From an uncultured Aliivibrio sp. (lineage in GTDB: Bacteria; Pseudomonadota; Gammaproteobacteria; Enterobacterales; Vibrionaceae), in NCBI RefSeq assembly GCF_946479765.1, contig NZ_CAMLHO010000015.1, positions 1 to 64,000 of the forward strand: a stretch of DNA of 64,000 nt, read 5' to 3'. Shown one piece after another: positions 1,394-55,668 of this stretch. The translations under genes were made by a program, and so were the position numbers. The notes under the pieces are model-generated. The model was not told the origin of the DNA. It made no database searches and was given only the letters and a program-made list of their open reading frames with translations. Position 1 is the first letter of the stretch. Each line of letters opens with the position of its first letter.

Positions 1394-1408
1394 ATTGCAA
1401 ATTGAGAA
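1394..1408 (-). promoter_or_regulatory. SypG-binding enhancer element upstream of sypA
   Basis: The minus strand reads TTCTCAATTTGCAAT, a full match to the SypG-box consensus TTCTCANNNTGMDWN as I recall it from A. fischeri. It lies about 70 bases upstream of the sypA sigma-54 promoter. Enhancers work in either orientation. Confidence 0.75.
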
Positions 1409-1479: not shown

Positions 1480-1494
1480 TGGCACGCTTACTGC
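1480..1494 (+). promoter_or_regulatory. sigma-54 promoter of sypA
   Basis: TGGCACGCTTACTGC keeps the -24 GG and -12 GC with correct spacing. It is about 50 bases before the sypA ATG and downstream of a SypG box. Confidence 0.85.
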
Positions 1495-1542
1495 TCTATT
1501 AAATCTATCAACACAATATAGATAAACCATCAGGAGCTTATT

Positions 1543-1860
1543 ATGGAATTACATCAATTTGAATCAGACACAAATACACTTGTTCTATCAGTTCAAGGTG
1601 ATATGGATGCGGTAGGTTGTCGAGATATCCAACCGACTATTGATGAAGTGATTGAACAAGAACACTCTCAAGTTCATATCGACCTAGCACAAGTGGCTTT
1701 TTTAGATTCTTCGGGTATTGGTGCCATTGTGTATCTATATAAACGATTAATTGAAAAAAAACGCACCATGCAAATTCAAAATGCTCATGGTCAACCATTA
1801 GAATTGCTTAAGTTACTGCGTATTGAAAATGCCATTCCAGTAAATAGCACAACTCATTAA
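1543..1860 (+). CDS. sypA: SypA, STAS-domain anti-sigma-factor-antagonist-like protein
   Basis: This 105-residue protein is a single STAS domain of the SpoIIAA/RsbV type. The conserved DSSG turn (VAFLDSSGIG) puts a serine at residue 56, the residue reported as the SypE phosphorylation site in A. fischeri SypA. It is the first gene of the syp locus, behind a sigma-54 promoter, with CAGGAG upstream of its ATG. The SypE homologue five genes on carries both an RsbW-like kinase and a PP2C phosphatase domain, so the partner-switch pair is complete. In A. fischeri unphosphorylated SypA promotes biofilm formation; the same role here is inferred. Confidence 0.9.
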   Translation: MELHQFESDTNTLVLSVQGDMDAVGCRDIQPTIDEVIEQEHSQVHIDLAQVAFLDSSGIGAIVYLYKRLIEKKRTMQIQNAHGQPLELLKLLRIENAIPVNSTTH

Positions 1861-4860: not shown

Positions 4861-5567
4861 TGAAAATACCCGCATGCAATATGGAAATTGAGCACGTATT
4901 TTTGCAATTAGAACAACAAGAGTGCCGTTCATTGTGTATCACCTCAACCAATTCAGGTGAAGGCGTAACCTCGTTAGCCCAAGCCTTAACTGAGCGACAT
5001 TTATTGGCGGGTTATCGCACTTTATTGGTGGATCTTAACTTACAGAATCCAAGTTTAACGGCTTTGTCATTTATTACAGGTCCAAAAGAAGAGAAAGAAA
5101 CGACACCACACTATCTCGCCCTCACTCTGCAAGATAACGTGGTGCTATCAGGGCTTCCAGCACCAACCAACAAAGCCAATATAATGGAACTTCGCCAGCC
5201 TAAATATCTTAAAAATCAAATTTCACAATGGCTTACCGAGTTTGATAAAGTGATCATTGATGCCTCAGCATTATCTCAACTCAGTGTTGATAATATTCCA
5301 GCTCAAACAATTGCTGGCGCGTGTGATGGCACCATCATGGTCATATTGTCAGGCCAAACCCTACAAACCGAATTGACCATTGTGATAGAATCATTAAAGA
5401 AAAACCAAGCGAACCTCATCGGTCATGTCTTTAATGATAAATATCAGCCGGGTTTAAAAAATGAAATTTGCAGAGAAATCGAAAGATTCCGTTTTTTACC
5501 CAAGAGATTATCTACTAAGCTAATTTCTATCGTCCAAAATAATCGATTCTTATCAACCGTGGTGTAA
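4860..5567 (+). CDS. sypD: SypD, CpsD/CapB-like ATPase with degenerate Walker A
   Basis: This 235-residue protein resembles the cytoplasmic half of bacterial tyrosine autokinases (BY-kinase/CpsD). The Walker A region reads NSGEGVTSLA (residues 31-40), with valine where the nucleotide-binding lysine is expected. The Walker A' strand (TLLVDLNLQNPSLT) and a Walker B-like strand (DKVIIDASA) are recognisable. There is no tyrosine-rich C-terminal tail. It may be a non-catalytic partner of the chain-length protein SypO, or bind nucleotide differently. It overlaps both neighbours by one base (TAATG), inside the syp operon. Confidence 0.82.
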   Translation: MKIPACNMEIEHVFLQLEQQECRSLCITSTNSGEGVTSLAQALTERHLLAGYRTLLVDLNLQNPSLTALSFITGPKEEKETTPHYLALTLQDNVVLSGLPAPTNKANIMELRQPKYLKNQISQWLTEFDKVIIDASALSQLSVDNIPAQTIAGACDGTIMVILSGQTLQTELTIVIESLKKNQANLIGHVFNDKYQPGLKNEICREIERFRFLPKRLSTKLISIVQNNRFLSTVV

Positions 5568-7096
5568 TGATGACTAATTCCATTTTACTTTTCGAAGATA
5601 CGCAACCTACCTCTCTTGATTCTGTGAGAGTGCTGCGTCAATCACTGTCTAAAATAGTCGACCGTTTGGATATTCAACAAACCTTTAAGCATCAATGTTT
5701 ACTCTGTTTTTCAGAGTGGAGTACCAACTTGGTCCTACATCCTGAATATCCTAGCGACACCATTACTCTTTCCTTACGAAAAACGCCAAAGCACTGGCAG
5801 TTAGATATCAGTGATAATGGTGAGCAGTGGGACCCCACAACGCAGCATAGCAATGAAGATGTCAGTGATTTCACCTTAAAATGTGGAGGACGAGGCATTG
5901 ATATTATTCAAGCACAAACCGATGAAATAAATTATGTTTCAACCAGTGTGAATAACGTTTTCACTATGAAATGGGAGCGCGCAGCATTCCAAAAAACGCA
6001 CCATATATTGATCGTTGAGGATGACTCTATACTACGAACCCTCTACCAAGCCTATCTCACACCTGAATTTACCGTTACCACCAAAAATAACGGTAAAGAC
6101 GCACTGCAATTTTTAAACAGTGAATCCGTTGATTTAATCATCTCAGACATTCAGATGCCAGAAATGGGCGGTCTAGAGCTAAGAGAAAAACTAGAACAAT
6201 CCGACACCTTCTGTACGCCTTTTATTTTTTTATCACGCTTACAAGACCACCACACAGTAAATAATGCGACTCAATTAGGCATTGATGATTACCTAGAAAA
6301 ACCGATTCAAAAACAGCCATTACTTAATTCAATTCATCGTGTATTAGCGCGATTTGATCAAGTCTACAAATCACTCTCTCAACAGGTGAATCAAAAAATA
6401 ACTCACACTCTTTTACCCAATACGGAACTGGATTCAAAACATTGGAAAATAGCAACACAACAACGTAATACGGGCCATGGTGGTGGTGACTTTTTATTGT
6501 CACGCACCGAGAAAGACAACTCACTGTTATTACTTGCTGATGTGATGGGCCATGATGAGAGCGCTAAGTTTTTCGCTTATGCATATGCTGGGTATGTTCG
6601 AGGGTTAATGCAAAATGCAGATATCACCCAGCCGGCACAATTGTTATCTCACCTCTCAAATAATGCATTTAAAGACCACTTGTTATCACAAACCATGTTA
6701 ACAAGTTGTTGTTTAAGTTTTGTTTCTGATGATACGATAAAAATCAGTAGTGCAGGTCATCCTGCCCCTCTCCATCTTTCATCAAAAGGAATTGAAATCG
6801 TTGATGTTCAAGGAACCTTACCCGGTTTGCTACCAATCACAGAGTACCAAGAGCAAAGCCTGACATTAAAAAAAGGCGAACGATTAGCTTTATTTACGGA
6901 TGGGCTATTTGAATCGGGCAACACCGTTTCAGAAAGAGAAACCTTAGAGTTAAGGATAAAAGAAACCTTATTATCAACATTAGAGCATCCAATAGAAGAG
7001 GCATTAACTCTAGTTATGAAATGCTTTGATAACTTAGCAGGGACACCACCCAACGACGATGCATTGTTACTGTTAATAGAACGAAACACCCAATAG
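5567..7096 (+). CDS. sypE: SypE, RsbW-like kinase / receiver / PP2C phosphatase
   Basis: Three domains are visible. An RsbW-type HATPase (about residues 20-135) has the N-box EWSTNLV and the glycine motif GGRGIDII. A receiver domain (about 147-265) has phospho-acceptor DLIISDIQMPEMGG and YLEKPI. A SpoIIE/PP2C phosphatase (about 295-507) keeps its metal-binding aspartates (GGGDF, LADVMGH, FTDGLFES, NDDALLLL). In A. fischeri SypE both phosphorylates and dephosphorylates SypA, with the receiver deciding which activity dominates. All needed residues appear intact here. The start overlaps the sypD stop; the second ATG at 5570 is an equally possible start. Confidence 0.9.
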   Translation: MMTNSILLFEDTQPTSLDSVRVLRQSLSKIVDRLDIQQTFKHQCLLCFSEWSTNLVLHPEYPSDTITLSLRKTPKHWQLDISDNGEQWDPTTQHSNEDVSDFTLKCGGRGIDIIQAQTDEINYVSTSVNNVFTMKWERAAFQKTHHILIVEDDSILRTLYQAYLTPEFTVTTKNNGKDALQFLNSESVDLIISDIQMPEMGGLELREKLEQSDTFCTPFIFLSRLQDHHTVNNATQLGIDDYLEKPIQKQPLLNSIHRVLARFDQVYKSLSQQVNQKITHTLLPNTELDSKHWKIATQQRNTGHGGGDFLLSRTEKDNSLLLLADVMGHDESAKFFAYAYAGYVRGLMQNADITQPAQLLSHLSNNAFKDHLLSQTMLTSCCLSFVSDDTIKISSAGHPAPLHLSSKGIEIVDVQGTLPGLLPITEYQEQSLTLKKGERLALFTDGLFESGNTVSERETLELRIKETLLSTLEHPIEEALTLVMKCFDNLAGTPPNDDALLLLIERNTQ

Positions 7097-7121
7097 CATA
7101 GTATTTTATAGAGAGGTCATT

Positions 7122-7505
7122 ATGAAAGAAGACAACAATAACCACCCAACCTCCATATTGGTTGATGAGGCGATTCTTCAGCAAATAATTAAAGATACTG
7201 ACGCCAGTGTGATGCCTGAATTAATCAGTTTTTATATTATCGAATCTAAAGCGAGAGTAGAAACTATTACAAAAGCAACCCATACTAATGATCTCTATGC
7301 GTTAGAGTTTGAGGCTCATACGTTAGGAAGTACCTCTCTCACATTAGGTAATAGTGCTTTAGCTACGCTTGCTCGCCAAATAGAACAACATTGCCTTCAA
7401 CACGAATTTGATGACGCATTAACAAAATCTCTTTCATTACCCGCTCTCGCTGAAGCGTCATTTTTAGCACTAGAACAACGAAACGCACTCGGCTTCACAA
7501 ACTAA
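7122..7505 (+). CDS. sypF: stand-alone HPt phosphotransfer protein in the sypF position
   Basis: The 127-residue product is a single histidine-phosphotransfer domain: helical, with EFEAHTLGSTSLTLG and the phospho-accepting histidine at residue 66. It has its own ribosome site (GAGAGGTCATT before the ATG) and lies between sypE (25 bases) and sypG (49 bases), exactly where A. fischeri has sypF. There SypF is a large membrane hybrid histidine kinase ending in an HPt domain; here the periplasmic, kinase and receiver parts are absent. No kinase remnant is visible in the 25-base gap before it. It likely relays phosphate from a kinase encoded elsewhere to SypG. I use the symbol by position and domain only. 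Confidence 0.82.
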   Translation: MKEDNNNHPTSILVDEAILQQIIKDTDASVMPELISFYIIESKARVETITKATHTNDLYALEFEAHTLGSTSLTLGNSALATLARQIEQHCLQHEFDDALTKSLSLPALAEASFLALEQRNALGFTN

Positions 7506-7554: not shown

Positions 7555-9048
7555 ATGTTGCTTATGCTACAAAAAGTATTATTAGTTGAAGATTCCACCT
7601 CTTTAGCCATTCTTTACAAACAATACGTTAAAGATGAACCGTATGAATTCTTCCATGTCACCACGGGCGAGCAAGCGAAAGCCTTCATGGAAAAGAACCC
7701 ACCACAATTGGTCGTTCTTGATTTAAAATTACCCGACATGTCAGGACAGGATGTATTGGCATGGATGAAAGAAAATCAACTTCCCACCGCCGTTATTGTC
7801 GCGACAGCTCATGGCACCATCAACATTGCCGTCGATTTATTACAAAGTGGTGCGGATGATTTTATTGAAAAACCAATCCAAGCAGACCGATTTAAAATAT
7901 CTATCCGTAATCACCTTAAACGAGCCAAACTTGAAGATCTGGTTGAAGATCTACAAAACACCTTCAACCGTAAAAAATACCAAGGGTTTATTGGCTCTAG
8001 CTTACCGATGCAAGCGGTATACAAAACCATTGATGCCGTTGCACCAACGACTGCTAGTGTATTTATTTACGGGGAAAGCGGGACAGGTAAAGAAGTGTGC
8101 GCCGAAGCCATTCATTATCAAAGCCAACGAAATAATAAAGCCTTTGTTGCCATTAACTGTGGCGCAATCCCACGAGATTTGATGGAAAGTGAAATTTTTG
8201 GTCATGTGAAAGGCGCATTTACTGGCGCAACGACTGATCGAAAAGGGGCAGCCATGATGGCTAATGGCGGCACGCTCTTTTTAGATGAATTGTGTGAAAT
8301 GGAATTAGAAATGCAGAAAAAATTACTGCGTTTTTTACAAACAGGCCGCTTTACGCCATTAGGTGGCAGTAAAGAACTCAGTACCGATATTCGTATTATC
8401 TGTGCCACCAACCGTGATCCTCTTACTGAAGTGAACGAAGGCCGTTTTAGAGAAGATTTATACTATCGTGTCCATGTTGTTCCCATTCAAATGCCACCAC
8501 TGCGTGATCGTGGTACTGACATTATTGATATAGCTTCCTTCTTCCTAAAAAAATACGCTAAAGAAGACAAGAAGAAATTCAAAGCGATGACACGAGATGT
8601 CGAACTAATCCTATGCAACTACCCATGGCCAGGCAATGTACGTCAGCTGCAAAATATCATCAGAAACGTAGTGGTTCTTCACAATGAAACCCATGTGGCG
8701 ATAGAGCATTTACCACCGCCATTAAACCAACCCTTTTTAACACCAACACCTAAACTACAAGCGAAACCGCAGACTAAAGCTCAACCGCTTCAAAAAGAAG
8801 TGTCGATTCAACCTCATCAAGATAACACCACGGAATCTCAACCTAGCCATCAAGACGCTGCTGTACCTCTGGACATCAATACCAGTGCAATTCGTCCAAT
8901 GGCTGATATAGAAAGAGAAGTCATTCAAAACGCCATTGACCAATGTAATGGCAATGTTTTAAATGCGGCGGTCTTACTTGAACTCAGTCCATCAACTTTA
9001 TACCGCAAAAAACAGGCGTGGGAAGCGTATGAAGAATCAGACTCCTAA
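7555..9048 (+). CDS. sypG: SypG, sigma-54-dependent response regulator
   Basis: An NtrC-type activator. The receiver (residues 7-120) has acceptor VVLDLKLPDMSG and FIEKP. The AAA+ domain (about 145-380) has Walker A GESGTGKE, the sigma-54-contacting GAFTGA loop and an R-finger region. A glutamine/proline-rich linker follows (about 395-440), then a Fis-type helix-turn-helix (NVLNAAVLLELSPSTLYRKK). It should activate the four sigma-54 promoters that carry TTCTCA-type enhancers in this locus. The start could be 7555 or the ATG at 7564, which has better-placed AGGA. Confidence 0.93.
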   Translation: MLLMLQKVLLVEDSTSLAILYKQYVKDEPYEFFHVTTGEQAKAFMEKNPPQLVVLDLKLPDMSGQDVLAWMKENQLPTAVIVATAHGTINIAVDLLQSGADDFIEKPIQADRFKISIRNHLKRAKLEDLVEDLQNTFNRKKYQGFIGSSLPMQAVYKTIDAVAPTTASVFIYGESGTGKEVCAEAIHYQSQRNNKAFVAINCGAIPRDLMESEIFGHVKGAFTGATTDRKGAAMMANGGTLFLDELCEMELEMQKKLLRFLQTGRFTPLGGSKELSTDIRIICATNRDPLTEVNEGRFREDLYYRVHVVPIQMPPLRDRGTDIIDIASFFLKKYAKEDKKKFKAMTRDVELILCNYPWPGNVRQLQNIIRNVVVLHNETHVAIEHLPPPLNQPFLTPTPKLQAKPQTKAQPLQKEVSIQPHQDNTTESQPSHQDAAVPLDINTSAIRPMADIEREVIQNAIDQCNGNVLNAAVLLELSPSTLYRKKQAWEAYEESDS

Positions 9049-10102: not shown

Positions 10103-10117
10103 TTCTCATTTTGATAA
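10103..10117 (+). promoter_or_regulatory. SypG-binding enhancer element, second syp unit
   Basis: TTCTCATTTTGATAA fully matches TTCTCANNNTGMDWN and lies about 60 bases before the sigma-54 promoter at 10177. A one-mismatch copy (CTCTCAAATTGAAAA) sits just upstream at 10082-10096, so this promoter may have two sites. Confidence 0.75.
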
Positions 10118-10176
10118 ATCGCCCTCAAAGAAAAAATATTGATAATAGAATCAATCAGATAAACACCTTAACAATC

Positions 10177-10191
10177 TGGCACTCCCTTTGC
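10177..10191 (+). promoter_or_regulatory. sigma-54 promoter of the second syp unit
   Basis: TGGCACTCCCTTTGC is a near-perfect -24/-12 match. In A. fischeri the equivalent promoter drives sypI; here the next gene is the Wzy/ligase-like gene at 10341, after a leader of about 140 bases. Confidence 0.87.
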
Positions 10192-10340
10192 TTTATCTCT
10201 TATATCAAAAAGTAACCTTACTGCTCGTCTATTATGGTGATAACTGGAGCCGAAGCGCTGAAGTCTGCTTAATCAATCTAATCAAAAGCATTAATCACCC
10301 TATTTCAGCACAAGAAAGGTAACCAACAAAGAGGCAAGTT

Positions 10341-11735
10341 ATGATGATGAATGATGCACCATTCCAATCAAAATCACTGCAATGGTTTACTGCAATTATC
10401 TGCTCACTGTTTGCAGGGGTTTTATGGCGCTTATTTCCTCACCCCGCTTTAATTATCGTGCTAGGTATTTTACCTCTTGCTGTGCTTTATACTCTTAATC
10501 GCCCTTTTCTGATGGTATTACTGTTTGTGATCTTCTCTTTTTTCCGCATTCATGAGGTCTTCCCGCAAATTTACAACCTTAAAATCCCACTGTTATTGTC
10601 TCTTGGATCTTTGGCGGCATTGAGTTGGCAAGTCGGTATAACCAAACAAATAAAATTGTTTTGGTGTAAAGAATTTACGTTACTTACCTGCTTTATGATT
10701 TTGATAATTATAGGAATTGTCTTTGCTAGTAATCGACCTATTGCTATTGAATATTTCAAAGGTATTTATTGGAAAATAATCCTGATGACATTTGCTATTG
10801 CGGTATTAGTCCGAAGCCCTCAACAGCTCTCATTCACTTTAAAGGCGATCACCATTGCTGGAGTTCTTGTCGGAATCGTCGCCATTCAAAATAAGTTAGG
10901 AGGCATTGGTTTAGTGGAAGGAACTCGTGTCACGATTGGACGAGAATTTGGCTCAATGTTGGGGGACCCTAACGATCTTGCGCTAGTTCTTATGTTCCCT
11001 ACTTCATTTGCCGTCGGGTTATTAGTGACTCATCAATTGCCTTGGCATCAACGTCTGCTCGGATTTATCGCTATCCCTATTCTTTTTTGGGCTGTAATCG
11101 CAACCCAAAGCCGAGGCGGGCTATTAGGGATGGTCGCTGTTTTCGGTATTTATGGCTTACAACGAATCAAATCTAAAGCACTCCTTATCTCTATCGCCGT
11201 TATCGCCGGAGGGATTTTATTTATTGTTGCAGGAATTTCAGATCGATCATCAGGAGGCGCAGCAGAGGCTGGTATTGATGCCTCATCAATGGGACGATTA
11301 TACGCATGGGAAGCCGCGGTTAAAATGGCAATAAGTCACCCATTTACAGGGGTTGGTTTAGATAACTTTTTTGCTAATTATTTCTATTACAGTCCTCATT
11401 GGGATGGATTAAACCATGCCGTTCACAGTACATGGTTTGGTGTACTGGCAGAAACTGGTTTTCTTGGGTTAATTATTTTTATTAGCTTAATTGCTGTATT
11501 AATAAAAAATGCGAATAAAACACTACAAGCAGTAAAAGCGGTACAAGATAGAATTGATCCTGCCATATATACCTGTGCTCAAGCGGTATTCGCAGGATTA
11601 ATTGGCACCATTGTTTCTGGTACTTTTTTAACTCAAGGGTTCAACTGGCCGATTTACATTCTAGCGGCATTGGTCGTTGCGGTTAATAAAACCAGTGAGA
11701 TAGCATTAGCTAAGATCAATGAATCAAACTCATGA
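10341..11735 (+). CDS. O-antigen ligase / Wzy polymerase-like membrane protein of the syp locus
   Basis: The 464-residue protein has about 11-12 hydrophobic membrane segments and the large periplasmic loop typical of the Wzy/WaaL (O-antigen_lig) family, with GREFGSMLGDPND, ATQSRGGLLGM and HSTWFGVLAETGFLG as recognisable patches. It likely polymerises the Syp repeat units. It occupies the place of the sypI-sypL block of A. fischeri and probably corresponds to the polymerase/ligase gene there; I am not sure enough to assign a letter. GAGGCA precedes three consecutive ATG codons near 10341, so the exact start is uncertain by one or two codons. Confidence 0.82.
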   Translation: MMMNDAPFQSKSLQWFTAIICSLFAGVLWRLFPHPALIIVLGILPLAVLYTLNRPFLMVLLFVIFSFFRIHEVFPQIYNLKIPLLLSLGSLAALSWQVGITKQIKLFWCKEFTLLTCFMILIIIGIVFASNRPIAIEYFKGIYWKIILMTFAIAVLVRSPQQLSFTLKAITIAGVLVGIVAIQNKLGGIGLVEGTRVTIGREFGSMLGDPNDLALVLMFPTSFAVGLLVTHQLPWHQRLLGFIAIPILFWAVIATQSRGGLLGMVAVFGIYGLQRIKSKALLISIAVIAGGILFIVAGISDRSSGGAAEAGIDASSMGRLYAWEAAVKMAISHPFTGVGLDNFFANYFYYSPHWDGLNHAVHSTWFGVLAETGFLGLIIFISLIAVLIKNANKTLQAVKAVQDRIDPAIYTCAQAVFAGLIGTIVSGTFLTQGFNWPIYILAALVVAVNKTSEIALAKINESNS

Positions 11736-11754: not shown

Positions 11755-11769
11755 GTCTCAAAATGAGAA
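11755..11769. promoter_or_regulatory. SypG-binding enhancer element upstream of sypM (dyad)
   Basis: GTCTCAAAATGAGAA reads TTCTCATTTTGAGAC on the minus strand, a full match to the consensus; the plus strand matches with one difference at position 1. The core TCTCAAAATGAGA is nearly self-complementary, so it can be read from both strands. Confidence 0.7.
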
Positions 11770-11827
11770 AATAAATACCCCCTAAAAATATAAAAGCTAT
11801 CCCATTGATAAACAAATGAAAAATAAC

Positions 11828-11842
11828 TGGCACAATCCATGA
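11828..11842 (+). promoter_or_regulatory. sigma-54-like promoter of sypM
   Basis: TGGCACAATCCATGA has a perfect -24 half but GA instead of GC at -12. Its position between a SypG box and sypM supports it despite the weak -12. Confidence 0.65.
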
Positions 11843-11881
11843 AGTACTTATTATATAAGCAACCAAAAAAGGAATGCCACT

Positions 11882-12637
11882 ATGAGTACATTATCTGTTT
11901 ATCGATTAAAACAATGGCTAAAAGAGGGGAAAAGCCCACTTGCTTCTCGTCTATTTCAAATCGCGAAATCGATTCGCTTTTTCGAACTACCTACACCTCG
12001 CCCTATTAATGCTCTTTTTTATGGGCTGCATAAAACCATTACCACTCAATGGCAAGCATTCACGCATCTTGTTTTTTATGTTCCCGCCTTTAAAGGACGT
12101 TTAGATGCATATGGAAAACGCATTTTATTATATGGCGGACTGCCTTTTTTTAGTGGCCCATTAACAATGACCATTGGAGATGATTGTCGGATCTCAGGAC
12201 AAACCACCTTCAGCGGACGAACTAATTCCGAGAACCCAACCCTGACCGTCGGAAACAATGTCGATATTTGTTGGCAAACCACCATTGCTGTCGGTAACCG
12301 CATTGTTATTGGTGACAATGTACGTATTGCTGGACAAGGTTTTTTGTGCGGTTATCCAGGACATCCAATTGACCCAACAGAGCGTGCATTAGGCAAAGCC
12401 GATTTAGATAGCCAAGTAGGTAACATAATTTTGGAGAAAGACGTATGGCTTGGCTCTCGCGTTAGCATCATTGGTAATGTCACCGTCGGCGAAGGAACCA
12501 TTGTCGCTTCAGGTAGTGTCGTAACCAAAAGCTTACCGCCATTTGTATTAGCAGGCGGAAACCCAGCAAAAATCATCAAACCATTAGCTATCAACCACTC
12601 AGAAACCATCAAAGAGGAAATGTATTATGAAGCATGA
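11882..12637 (+). CDS. sypM: SypM, left-handed beta-helix acyltransferase
   Basis: The 251-residue protein has an N-terminal helical part and, from about residue 95, hexapeptide repeats of the LbH family (LTVGNNVDI, IVIGDNVRIAGQ, VSIIGNVTVGEGTIVASGSVVTKSLPP), ending in the acetyltransferase-type GGNPAKIIKP. It probably acetylates a sugar of the Syp polysaccharide using acetyl-CoA. First gene of the third unit; its last 11 bases overlap the start of sypN. Confidence 0.88.
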   Translation: MSTLSVYRLKQWLKEGKSPLASRLFQIAKSIRFFELPTPRPINALFYGLHKTITTQWQAFTHLVFYVPAFKGRLDAYGKRILLYGGLPFFSGPLTMTIGDDCRISGQTTFSGRTNSENPTLTVGNNVDICWQTTIAVGNRIVIGDNVRIAGQGFLCGYPGHPIDPTERALGKADLDSQVGNIILEKDVWLGSRVSIIGNVTVGEGTIVASGSVVTKSLPPFVLAGGNPAKIIKPLAINHSETIKEEMYYEA

Positions 12638-15280: not shown

Positions 15281-15295
15281 TTCTCAATTTGCAAA
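15281..15295 (+). promoter_or_regulatory. SypG-binding enhancer element upstream of sypP
   Basis: TTCTCAATTTGCAAA is a full match to TTCTCANNNTGMDWN and almost identical to the element in front of sypA. It is 47 bases upstream of the sigma-54 promoter. Confidence 0.77.
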
Positions 15296-15342
15296 TATTC
15301 ACTTTTTAAATATAAACCATTGAATATAAAGGACAATATAAC

Positions 15343-15357
15343 TGGCACAAACCCTGC
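15343..15357 (+). promoter_or_regulatory. sigma-54 promoter of sypP
   Basis: TGGCACAAACCCTGC has both invariant dinucleotides at correct spacing and lies 33 bases before the sypP ATG. Confidence 0.85.
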
Positions 15358-15390
15358 AATTATTAAATAAATAATAAAAAGGAGCTTGCT

Positions 15391-16479
15391 ATGAAAAACA
15401 TTATTCATGTTGTCCAACACCTTTCTCCTGGTGGATTAGAAACCATGGTGTTAGATATGTTGGAGTTTTCTAATCCAAACCACAAAACAATGGTTGTGAG
15501 TCTAGAAGGGACACTCAAAGATACATTAGATCATTGGCCAAGATTGGCTCGCTACCAAGACCGTGTAATTTGCTTAAATAAATCACCCGGTTTTTCCATT
15601 GCTGTGGTTAAACAATTACTTTCAATATCTAAGCAATACCATGTGGATGTACTTCACTCTCACCATATTGGTCCGTTAATTTATTCAGGCCTCACTGCCT
15701 TACTAAATCGTAAAATAACGCATGTACATACTGAACATGATGCTTGGCACTTAAATAGCAAAAAACATCGCTATTTACAGCAATCCATCCTTACCTTATC
15801 CAAGCCAACATTAGTTGCAGATGCTAATTTCGTAAAAAAATCATTAGCTCGTATATATAATCAATACCCTATCTACACGATTAAAAATGGAATAGACCCT
15901 AATAAATTTACGGTAGGTAATAAGGCGCAAGCAAGACATTCATTAGGCATAGTATTACCTAGAGGCGCGATTGTGGTTGGAAATGCCGCAAGGTTAGAGA
16001 CCGTGAAAGGGCAACCTAACCTTATAGAAGCCTTTCGCTTTCTAAATAAAAAATACCATTTGCTACTGGCTGGTTCTGGTTCAAGAAAATCGCATTTACA
16101 CGCATTAGTTCATCAATATAAGTTAGAAGATAGAGTTCACTTTCTTGGTCATATTGATCACATGCCAACCTTCTATCAAGCGTTAGATGTATTTTGCTTG
16201 CCATCAAATAACGAAGGATTTCCTCTCTCAACTCTAGAAGCTCAAGCCTGTGGGATCCCTTGTATTGCAAATAATGTAGGAGGTGTCGCCGAAACACTCT
16301 GTCCAATCTATAGTCAATTGGTCAATAGTAACCGTCCTATTATGCTGACAGCAGCCATTAATTCGATTACCCAACAATCCAACGTTGGCAACCCAAGAGA
16401 CTTCATTCTAAAAAACAATCACGCAAAATCTATGGCAACCGCTTATGAACATTTATACTTTTCGGGAGTGACTATATGA
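15391..16479 (+). CDS. sypP: SypP, GT4-family glycosyltransferase
   Basis: The 362-residue protein begins IIHVVQHLSPGGLETMVLDML, the usual GT4 N-terminal pattern, and has the donor-domain motifs IVVGNAARLETVKGQPNLIEAF, HFLGHIDHMPTFYQALD and NNEGFPLSTLEAQACGIP. First gene of the fourth syp unit; GGAGC precedes the ATG. The stop overlaps the sypQ start (ATGA). Sugar transferred unknown. Confidence 0.86.
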   Translation: MKNIIHVVQHLSPGGLETMVLDMLEFSNPNHKTMVVSLEGTLKDTLDHWPRLARYQDRVICLNKSPGFSIAVVKQLLSISKQYHVDVLHSHHIGPLIYSGLTALLNRKITHVHTEHDAWHLNSKKHRYLQQSILTLSKPTLVADANFVKKSLARIYNQYPIYTIKNGIDPNKFTVGNKAQARHSLGIVLPRGAIVVGNAARLETVKGQPNLIEAFRFLNKKYHLLLAGSGSRKSHLHALVHQYKLEDRVHFLGHIDHMPTFYQALDVFCLPSNNEGFPLSTLEAQACGIPCIANNVGGVAETLCPIYSQLVNSNRPIMLTAAINSITQQSNVGNPRDFILKNNHAKSMATAYEHLYFSGVTI

Positions 16480-18477: not shown

Positions 18478-20370
18478 ATGCAGAAGTCCCTCACATCTTC
18501 GATTGTTATTCCTGATAAGATAAAACAAGATTGGCAGAATATGCTTAATGTTCTTGCTGATCTTACTGAGGTACCTGTCGCTCTTGTGATGCGTATTCAT
18601 CATGAAACGATTGAGGTATTTTCATCTAATGACTCATTGGCGAATCCTTACATCGAAGGAAATATTGAACGCATTCATCAAAATTTATATTGTGAGCATG
18701 TCGTTAAACATCGCCATCAATTATTAGTACCTAATGCACTTAAAAACCCCGAGTGGGAAAATAGCCCAGATACCAATCTTAATATGATTGCTTATTGTGG
18801 CTTGCCTCTTTTTTGGCCGGATAACACGCCTTTTGGAACCGTGTGCATTCTCGATAGTAAAGAAAATGCTTTTAACCCGGCTTACCAACGTTTATTAGCT
18901 ACATACCAACAATCTATAGAAGCCCAACTGAATACTCTATTTCAACATACTGAATTATTAAAAAACCACCTAAAACTACAACAAGAAATAGCCAGTAAAA
19001 CCAATGATATTAATAAAATAAATACCAAATTAGCGAATGAAATAGATTGTCGTCGAGCAGCAGAGCAAAAAGTGGAATATCATAAAAGTCATGATATTGG
19101 TACTGGTTTTTTAAATACGACAGCACTATATCGACACATAGATAAATTAATCTGCACTAACAAGAATTTTGTTTTATTGCATATTCATTTCGCTAATAGT
19201 CGAAAAATACAACAAGAACACGGACACTCGGTATTTAATCTTATCTTAACTAAATATCGATCTAAATTATCCAAAGTCACTGACACCTCTGTCACAGGTC
19301 GATTAGACTCTTCTGACATTTTATTAGTCATTCATACAGATAAAGAAAAACTACCTAAACTATGTCAGCACCTCTCTGAAATTGGACAAACTCGTTTTTC
19401 AAATAACGAAGAGTTTATCCACCTGCAAAGTTATATTGGTGCCGTGCACTCTAACAATCAAGCATCCCGTACAGAATTGCTGCAATGTGCGTATAACACC
19501 GTTGTAGAGTGTCAAAATCATGGTAAAACATTCACGATTTCAGAGCGTTCGTTACCTGTTAAATCAAGCCTATCAGAACACAAAATTGAAGGCTATTTAT
19601 TAGAAGCGGTCCGTAATAATGACCTCTTTTTAAACTACCAACCTAAAGTATGTCCTTACACTAAACAATGGTTAGGCTGTGAAGTCCTATTACGTTGGAA
19701 TCATCCTCATCTAGCTACTATTTCTAATGACGTTTTGATTCAGTTAGCTGAACGAAATGGACTTATTTATGAGCTTGGTAATTTTGCATTAAGAAGTGCC
19801 ATTCAACAAACATCAGAATGGATCTTACATTCGCCAAATTTTGTCACTGCCGTCAATCTATCCGCAGTTCAATTAAAAGATCCATCTCTTGTACAACATA
19901 TTCAACAATTATTGGATATCTATAATCTTCCAGCTAAAAATTTAGAACTTGAGGTAACAGAAAGTGGATTAATTGCAGATGAAGAATTAGCCATCAGCAC
20001 CCTTACTCAATTACATGAGATGGGAATATCTATTGCACTTGATGACTTTGGAACCGGTTATGCTTCTTTTCAATATTTGAAAAAATACCCATTTGACTCC
20101 TTAAAAATCGATAAAAGTTTCATTGATAATGTAGAGCATAATGTCGAGGACCAAAATATTGTATGTGCCATGATAAATATCGCCAAAAAATTGCAACTCA
20201 AGGTAGTTGTTGAAGGGGTTGAAAATAAAAATCAAGAACGCTTTGTAACAAGTGAAGGGGTTGACCTTATCCAAGGGTATCTTTACTCAAAACCAATCAC
20301 AGCAAATGAATTCGAAGAAGGTTTATTCAATCAATCATCTATTGGGACTCCTTATTTTCAATTCATGTAG
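18478..20370 (+). CDS. GAF - degenerate GGDEF - EAL c-di-GMP phosphodiesterase
   Basis: An N-terminal GAF domain (about residues 20-155) is followed by a short coiled coil, a GGDEF-fold region in which the signature is replaced by GRLDSSD (about 200-355), and an EAL domain (about 370-610). The EAL part keeps catalytic motifs: EVLLRW, NLSAVQL, LEVTESG, LDDFGTGYASFQYL, VVVEGVEN and QGYLYSKP. It should degrade c-di-GMP to pGpG, with GAF and the dead GGDEF as sensory parts. It sits 161 bases after sypR in the same direction, which suggests a link to polysaccharide control. No sigma-54 promoter was seen before it. Confidence 0.88.
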   Translation: MQKSLTSSIVIPDKIKQDWQNMLNVLADLTEVPVALVMRIHHETIEVFSSNDSLANPYIEGNIERIHQNLYCEHVVKHRHQLLVPNALKNPEWENSPDTNLNMIAYCGLPLFWPDNTPFGTVCILDSKENAFNPAYQRLLATYQQSIEAQLNTLFQHTELLKNHLKLQQEIASKTNDINKINTKLANEIDCRRAAEQKVEYHKSHDIGTGFLNTTALYRHIDKLICTNKNFVLLHIHFANSRKIQQEHGHSVFNLILTKYRSKLSKVTDTSVTGRLDSSDILLVIHTDKEKLPKLCQHLSEIGQTRFSNNEEFIHLQSYIGAVHSNNQASRTELLQCAYNTVVECQNHGKTFTISERSLPVKSSLSEHKIEGYLLEAVRNNDLFLNYQPKVCPYTKQWLGCEVLLRWNHPHLATISNDVLIQLAERNGLIYELGNFALRSAIQQTSEWILHSPNFVTAVNLSAVQLKDPSLVQHIQQLLDIYNLPAKNLELEVTESGLIADEELAISTLTQLHEMGISIALDDFGTGYASFQYLKKYPFDSLKIDKSFIDNVEHNVEDQNIVCAMINIAKKLQLKVVVEGVENKNQERFVTSEGVDLIQGYLYSKPITANEFEEGLFNQSSIGTPYFQFM

Positions 20371-54159: not shown

Positions 54160-55242
54160 TTAAGCATCCTGTTCTACATTTTCTTCAGCTTCATTATTTA
54201 ACCAAACGGTAAATAACTGATACGTTAAACTCAGTATCACTGCCCCTACAAATAAACCAACAATACCTGACATCGCCATACCACCTAAAGCGCCTAGCAA
54301 AATAACGATCATAGGTATATGAGAGCCTCGGCTTAATAATATCGGTTTTAAAAATGCATCGCTGCTGCTTACCAACACACACCAAATTGAGAACAGAACC
54401 GCAGGCGCTGTCGTATCAACACTGAACACATAAAAAATAACAGGTAGCAGTATTAAAATTGGCGGCAGTTGAATAATCGCAAATACAAGCACTAAGAAAA
54501 TCAACAAACCCAACGCTGGCGTAGGAATACCAATCACAGCCATACCTAACCCTGCTAATGTGGTCTGTATGACGGCAACCCCTATTACCCCTTGAACCAC
54601 GCTTCTTATTGTTTTAGTCGACAGTTTCGTTAACGCTTCACCATGAGATCCAGTTAAGCGGTTTGAAACTAAAATAAAGGCTTGCTCGCACTTCGCTGCA
54701 TGAGACATAAAAACACCGGCAATAATAGTCGATACAATAAATTGAATAAAACCACCGCCCAACGAACCGACAATTGAAGCCGCTTTACTGGCAACGACTT
54801 TCACTTCAGCACTGTATTTAAATAACAGGCTTTCAAGATTTGACGAGGCTAATGACATAAAGGAATAGACTTCGTTTCCAATAATCGGCCAGTCTTGCAT
54901 ACTTGCTTTTGGCTTAGGGATCGCTATCGTTCCATCTTGATAGCCTAAAAACAATTCAGTTCCACTCGTGTAAATCCCTGTAGATAGAGCAACCAATGGA
55001 ACCAATAACAGTAAAACACCGATAATGGTTAAAATAATACTGATCTTACTCTCACTCAGTCTGGTTTTTCTATTAAAAAAGGCCACTATTGGGTATAAGG
55101 CGGTAGCGATAATACCGCCCCATACCATCAATAAGAGGAAAGGTTTTAATATAGACAAGCACCATAAAACCAGAACCGAAATGGCACTAATTTTGATAAA
55201 GGCATCAATCGCTTGATTAGAAAAATTATGATCTAGTTTCAT
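54160..55242 (-). CDS. AI-2E/PerM-family membrane transporter
   Basis: The 360-residue protein has about eight membrane segments (first at 15-60, a group at 205-350) and the family blocks TSGTELFLGYQDG, GGGFIQFIVSTIIAGVF and LPPILILLPVIFYVF. Family members move autoinducer-2 or other small solutes in or out. AAGGAACG precedes the ATG. Confidence 0.85.
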   Translation of the reverse strand: MKLDHNFSNQAIDAFIKISAISVLVLWCLSILKPFLLLMVWGGIIATALYPIVAFFNRKTRLSESKISIILTIIGVLLLLVPLVALSTGIYTSGTELFLGYQDGTIAIPKPKASMQDWPIIGNEVYSFMSLASSNLESLLFKYSAEVKVVASKAASIVGSLGGGFIQFIVSTIIAGVFMSHAAKCEQAFILVSNRLTGSHGEALTKLSTKTIRSVVQGVIGVAVIQTTLAGLGMAVIGIPTPALGLLIFLVLVFAIIQLPPILILLPVIFYVFSVDTTAPAVLFSIWCVLVSSSDAFLKPILLSRGSHIPMIVILLGALGGMAMSGIVGLFVGAVILSLTYQLFTVWLNNEAEENVEQDA

Positions 55243-55494: not shown

Positions 55495-55509
55495 TGGCAC
55501 GGAGAATGC
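55495..55509 (+). promoter_or_regulatory. sigma-54 promoter of the chemoreceptor gene
   Basis: TGGCACGGAGAATGC has both invariant dinucleotides at correct spacing, 160 bases before the MCP ATG. Vibrio flagellar and many chemotaxis genes depend on sigma-54 with FlrA/FlrC-type activators, so this gene may be in that cascade. Confidence 0.75.
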
Positions 55510-55668
55510 TTGATAGATATACAAGTCAAATACTTATTTCATTCCTATTATTATCTTCAATGTAATATTTATGACATGATTCATTTTGGATCTTAAATTT
55601 ATTATTACAAAGTTTGAATATCACTATTCACCAAATCATCACTACGTAACTAAAAAGATGGAACTCAC

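Follow-up and report, generated by a model that had tools for sequence, protein, structure and literature searches.

A SypF-derived stand-alone HPt protein in the syp locus of an uncultured Aliivibrio and its counterparts among the Vibrionaceae

The window analyzed here is a stretch of 64,000 nucleotides from an uncultured Aliivibrio sp., located on an 80-kb contig (C15) of a 3.80-Mb genome assembled in 120 contigs (G000). It carries a syp locus in which a short reading frame occupies the place between sypE and sypG that belongs to the hybrid kinase SypF (HK-REC-HPt) in A. fischeri. The main features of the locus are the following.

1397..1408, minus strand: SypG enhancer motif 5' of sypA, TTCTCAATTTGC, an exact match to TTCTCANNNTGM
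1480..1495, plus strand: sigma-54-like -24/-12 element of the sypA operon, from a motif search
1543..1860, plus strand: sypA; Pfam STAS; SypE substrate by homology
5567..7096, plus strand: sypE; Pfam HATPase_c_2 (RsbW-like kinase), receiver and PP2C/SpoIIE phosphatase; 82% identity to A. sifiae SypE
7110..7121, plus strand: HPt gene, ribosome-binding site and start context, AGAGAGGTCATT-ATG
7122..7505, plus strand: HPt-only SypF reading frame, 127 aa, ATG start, predicted phospho-acceptor His66
7555..9048, plus strand: sypG; Pfam receiver, sigma-54 AAA and Fis HTH; 84-89% identity to other Aliivibrio SypG
10103..10192, plus strand: 5' of the operon at 10341, SypG motif at 10103 and sigma-54-like element at 10177
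11758..11843, plus strand: 5' of the operon at 11882, SypG motif at 11758 (minus orientation) and sigma-54-like element at 11828
15281..15358, plus strand: 5' of the operon at 15391, SypG motif at 15281 and sigma-54-like element at 15343

The sypA operon extends through the HPt gene, and the start of sypG orthologous to that of its relatives is probably 7561 rather than 7555. A gene for a GAF-GGDEF-EAL protein lies just 3' of the last syp gene (18478-20370).

A reading of the letters alone had described, between sypE and sypG, a 127-residue HPt-only gene equipped with a ribosome site of its own, and this is confirmed by the reading frame, by the sequence AGAGAGG at 7110-7116, five bases 5' of the ATG, and by the Pfam analysis. 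The gene starts 25 nt past the sypE stop, with sypG next downstream, and Hpt (PF01627; 34.6 bits, E 2.4e-8, above the curated cut-off) is the sole domain that Pfam detected in its product. H66 aligns with H705 of A. fischeri SypF, and the corresponding column holds a histidine in all 131 of the 131 aligned homologues. The HPt is under purifying selection, with a dN/dS within the domain of 0.11 against A. sifiae and 0.12 against a second relative, G008. The AlphaFold2 model is helical (mean pLDDT 83; residues 1-11 poorly predicted), and a single HPt domain folded into a predicted helical bundle fits a stand-alone HPt protein. The solved structure nearest to the model is HptB of P. aeruginosa (TM 0.77, 18% identity, marginal E-value 0.002), which is likewise a stand-alone HPt but has different partners and no demonstrated kinship at the sequence level; a sequence profile search of solved structures with the HPt returned one chance-level match and no HPt.

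The protein corresponds to the C-terminal domain of SypF. Compared with the SypF HPt from other Aliivibrio, among them A. fischeri emors.2.1 and A. sifiae NBRC 105001, it is 65-76% identical: 65-70% against full SypF proteins (about 70% against that of A. fischeri) and some 76% against A. sifiae and G008. It shares with SypF the place between sypE and sypG, the C-terminal HPt with its conserved phospho-histidine and the closest kinship to SypF HPt domains, but the transmembrane, HAMP, HisKA, HATPase and receiver parts are absent from the gene, the locus and the genome. Because these sensor kinase parts are absent, the gene is classed on its sequence as a SypF-derived HPt and not as a SypF kinase. 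Unlike A. fischeri SypF, the product would be unable to sense or to autophosphorylate.

Full SypF, a frame of 761-775 aa ending in the HPt, is encoded in seven other Aliivibrio genomes. In an eighth (G004, locus L024) a break in the frame separates the receiver from the HPt; that genome yields partial matches to RscS and HahK, as if the network were decaying there. A. sifiae and G008 (loci L022 and L023) also lack the SypF kinase, and their genes encode about 231-237 aa, in which the HPt is preceded by two hydrophobic helices, predicted by eye, and a charged linker. The distance from sypE to sypG is graded: about 2.3-2.4 kb where Aliivibrio encode full SypF, 787-805 bp for the G008 and A. sifiae loci, and 468 bp in the window. 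The sequences thus suggest a membrane-anchored HPt in A. sifiae and G008, and a window form that has lost the anchor too. No Pfam match above cut-off was obtained for the anchor; its weak resemblance to the second transmembrane helix (TM2) of SypF (shuffle p from below 0.01 to 0.07) makes a kinship only suggestive. Likewise, the grouping of the three kinase-less loci in a tree of SypD, SypE, HPt and SypG, with 86/85 support, is suggestive, not firm. The start context GAGAGGTTCATT-ATG of A. sifiae sypF is near-identical to AGAGAGGTCATT-ATG of the window gene, a match that was read by eye and in which the computed alignment sets the gap elsewhere. Since the fuller contexts are also nearly equal (AGAGAGGTCATTATGAAA in the window, GAGAGGTTCATTATGAAA in A. 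sifiae), the ancestral start probably survives in the window gene, the segment from there to the HPt having been lost.

The search for lost kinase sequence that had been proposed for this region revealed no remnant in the gap between sypE and the HPt gene and no kinase of SypF grade in the genome. With the kinase part of A. fischeri SypF as query, no match exceeded 40% identity elsewhere in the window genome or 44% in the genomes of A. sifiae and G008, the expected yardstick being the 65% or more by which Aliivibrio SypF kinases resemble each other. A displaced SypF kinase is thereby ruled out for all three genomes. The division of the genome into 120 contigs could be taken to favor an assembly or frameshift artefact, in which a full SypF exists and was dropped, but the site is internal to the 80-kb contig, the separately assembled genomes of A. 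sifiae (8 contigs) and G008 are likewise without the kinase, and none of the three holds it anywhere. Given these independent assemblies of relatives and the consistent absence, an assembly error is rejected as having almost no probability.

The regulatory sites of the locus were mapped with the published SypG enhancer motif TTCTCANNNTGM (PMC10162802). All four exact matches in the 64-kb window lie 5' of syp operons, one per operon. The chance expectation being 1.7, a count of four is by itself not significant, and the evidence therefore rests on placement. Each motif is followed, at 62-83 nt from start to start, by a sigma-54-like element (TGGCAC-N6-TGMW), of which the window holds six where 0.7 are expected. 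With SypG site and sigma-54 motif kept at 4/4 syp operons, the syp regulon looks intact in this genome. The two further sigma-54-like elements (55182-55197 and 55495-55510) are outside the syp locus and have no SypG motif.

A sypF deletion strain of A. fischeri regains biofilm formation with the HPt of SypF alone; phosphate reaches this HPt from RscS and HahK, BinK is predicted to drain the HPt, and HahK signals via SypF and also via LuxU (PMC12369376, PMC11841056). The sequence-only reading had concluded that the window locus depends entirely on kinases encoded elsewhere and had named RscS as a donor. The first part stands insofar as the locus encodes no such kinase, so that a donor would have to be encoded elsewhere. 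RscS, identified in A. fischeri from the domain order PAS-HK-REC-HPt and from glpK as neighboring gene, is present in A. sifiae and G008; it has no match in the window genome and is rejected as the donor there. HnoX and HahK are present, with the same outer neighbors as in A. fischeri, as is BinK, located beside galR as in the published A. fischeri neighborhood (PMC5019070), and a LuxU-like gene is found on contig C75. HahK and BinK are HisKA-HATPase-receiver proteins that end in the receiver and have no HPt of their own; they therefore need a separate one. The HPt set of the genome comprises CheA, three hybrid kinases that look by eye like TorS, ArcB and BarA, the LuxU-like protein, a small HPt on contig C65 and the window HPt. 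Other hybrid kinases without an HPt are also encoded, such as one of 935 aa on C65 whose C-terminal part shares 45% identity with BinK. It lies in a phosphorelay-like cluster (L343) with a small HPt-like reading frame, an EAL-like protein and a receiver protein.

The presence of HahK with HnoX, of BinK and of LuxU points to a relay from HahK and BinK through the HPt to SypG and SypE as the likeliest one in this genome. Having lost sensor, kinase and receiver, SypF is in this genome a soluble histidine phosphotransfer protein; a hybrid kinase without an HPt would pass phosphate from its receiver aspartate to H66. From there, transfer to the receiver aspartate of SypG, the sigma-54 activator and likely target, would switch on the four sigma-54 syp promoters, and transfer to that of SypE, a likely second target, would release SypA. 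HahK, restrained by the NO-binding HnoX, would be the likeliest donor, BinK would remove phosphate from the HPt, and LuxU may provide a parallel input. Direction and partners of the phosphotransfer are deduced here from homology and A. fischeri genetics. To the main reading, namely that the HPt-only SypF is the hub of a relay fed by kinases encoded elsewhere, with HahK as likeliest donor and BinK draining it, we assign a probability of about 0.8. The suggestion made earlier that loss of the kinase changes how polysaccharide production is switched on is plausible; as the HPt alone restores sypF function in A. fischeri, the loss may cost little.

Several known systems resemble this arrangement. 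One is the engineered A. fischeri sypF-HPt allele (e.g. KV7226), in which the HPt expressed alone is sufficient for function (PMC11841056, PMC12369376); unlike that laboratory construct, the window allele is natural, part of the syp operon and found in a genome without RscS. LuxU, too, is a small and soluble HPt, which receives phosphate from several hybrid kinases and acts on a SypG-related sigma-54 activator, but it is of a different family and locus, and the window genome has a LuxU-like gene of its own. In open-access text no paper on a natural HPt-only SypF was found. A survey of scv (syp-like) loci scored sypF as absent from 38 Vibrio species and V. parahaemolyticus (PMC8941931), and V. 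harveyi ORM4 is likewise described as lacking sypF (PMC10820411). In the survey reported here, many Vibrio have a stand-alone HPt directly before sypG in syp-like (scv/rbd) loci, and we strongly infer that many of the 38 species probably carry an overlooked HPt.

Among 298 Vibrionaceae genomes, an HPt match was obtained in 152 and SypG (E 1e-160 or better) in 159, and in the loci retrieved, sypG is directly preceded by the HPt, whether free or fused. The 138 loci placed in a SypG tree comprise 65 HPt-only loci, 56 with full SypF, four with both and 13 with neither. Reduction of SypF to its HPt is thus not peculiar to the window genome and characterizes about half of the surveyed loci. The HPt-only label requires 15 changes on this tree, at least 12 of them on well-supported branches, a count that reads alike for loss and gain and for repeated loss and horizontal transfer, the tree being a quick, single-gene one with long branches and many weak ones. 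The HPt-only Vibrio loci also lack sypE, whereas the clade of the window retains it. The layouts vary further: the HPt may follow straight after sypD or stand behind a three-gene block that by eye resembles a betaine/proline-type ABC transporter, and a binding-protein gene (by eye) may precede full SypF. Such a periplasmic-binding-protein-like gene precedes sypF in many Vibrio with full SypF and no SypE (L143, L163, L192), and its product might be a ligand-binding partner of SypF. In the four loci with both forms, all from Vibrio (L163, L175, L176, L193), full SypF is accompanied by an additional free HPt 5' of sypG, and the inserted ABC-transporter-like block separates the two.

In the 13 loci with SypG and neither form, no HPt reading frame was found in the locus; the idea that the HPt is always kept is rejected, and another HPt, e.g. 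LuxU, presumably serves SypG there. Four loci without SypF or HPt (L325-L328, in G108, G126, G102 and G122) encode SypE, together with a SypG that shares 75-77% identity with that of the window. In a 2.1-Mb genome (G015, L184), about 1.5 kb of stop-riddled sequence occupies the place of the SypF kinase and is followed by an intact HPt frame, possibly a snapshot of the reduction of SypF.

The gene pair hnoX-hahK lies directly 5' of sypA in four HPt-only Vibrio loci (L357-L360, in G287, G176, G163 and G271), with identities, over nearly the full length, of 57-59% for HnoX and 42-44% for HahK. Because all four belong to one supported group, they count as one piece of evidence. A kinase directly 5' of sypA is not a general rule, as only these four were seen among 16 HPt-only loci examined. 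HahK is retained in 62 of the 65 HPt-only genomes, two of the three exceptions being reduced genomes; it is also encoded in 43 of the 56 genomes with full-length SypF. Being nearly everywhere in Vibrio and Aliivibrio, HahK is uninformative as a marker of the HPt-only state, and its presence alone, common whatever the state of SypF, is weak evidence for a donor role.

The strongest competitor of a HahK-fed relay is a different source of phosphate. The window genome encodes several hybrid kinases without an HPt, and the BinK-like C-terminal part of the 935-aa kinase on C65 makes this protein a candidate donor; phosphate might also flow in reverse from quorum-sensing kinases, with BinK, as a phosphatase, maybe the only regular partner of the HPt. 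In A. fischeri, however, activation of SypG via the SypF HPt has genetic support for HahK alone among the HPt-less kinases (PMC12369376), hnoX-hahK is linked to sypA in HPt-only loci, and the C65 kinase has, about 3 kb away, a small HPt-like reading frame that may be its partner. Another donor is therefore a minority prospect, to be kept in mind but unlikely.

Much less probable is that the HPt is a phosphate sink or a decaying remnant on its way out, with SypG served mainly by LuxU. The 13 loci that keep SypG without an HPt are compatible with such a course, as are the LuxU of the window genome and the observation that, in A. fischeri mutated in sypF, the signal from HahK travels through LuxU (PMC12369376), but a dN/dS of about 0.11, the invariant histidine, the intact ribosome site and the maintenance of the HPt beside sypG across many lineages argue for a functional gene. 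Marginally less credible still is an ancestral HPt-only state, onto which a kinase was fused several times. The change counts of the SypG tree, with its many weak branches, leave room for gain as well as loss, but full SypF together with SypE is found in Photobacterium-group genomes, in two Vibrio and in other Aliivibrio, and these proteins share the same kinase domains at about 48-66% identity. The HPt frame behind stop-riddled sequence in one reduced genome and the weak TM2 likeness of the A. sifiae and G008 anchor also speak against repeated fusion.

Beyond the relay itself, a wider scenario is put forward tentatively, its chances being slightly below even: the SypF sensor and kinase would have been discarded repeatedly in Vibrionaceae, the HPt staying by sypG; HnoX-HahK, responding to NO, and BinK would be the only direct controllers of SYP; and A. 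sifiae and G008 would retain an unusual, membrane-tethered HPt without a kinase. SypF is treated as the central sensor in the control of the symbiosis polysaccharide, and about half of the surveyed loci are without its sensor and kinase but retain the HPt next to sypG. The sufficiency of the HPt in A. fischeri was already known, and the laboratory HPt-only allele has its natural equivalents in the HPt-only genomes. With these it becomes directly testable which kinases drive SypG and whether NO, via HnoX-HahK, is the more widely kept input.
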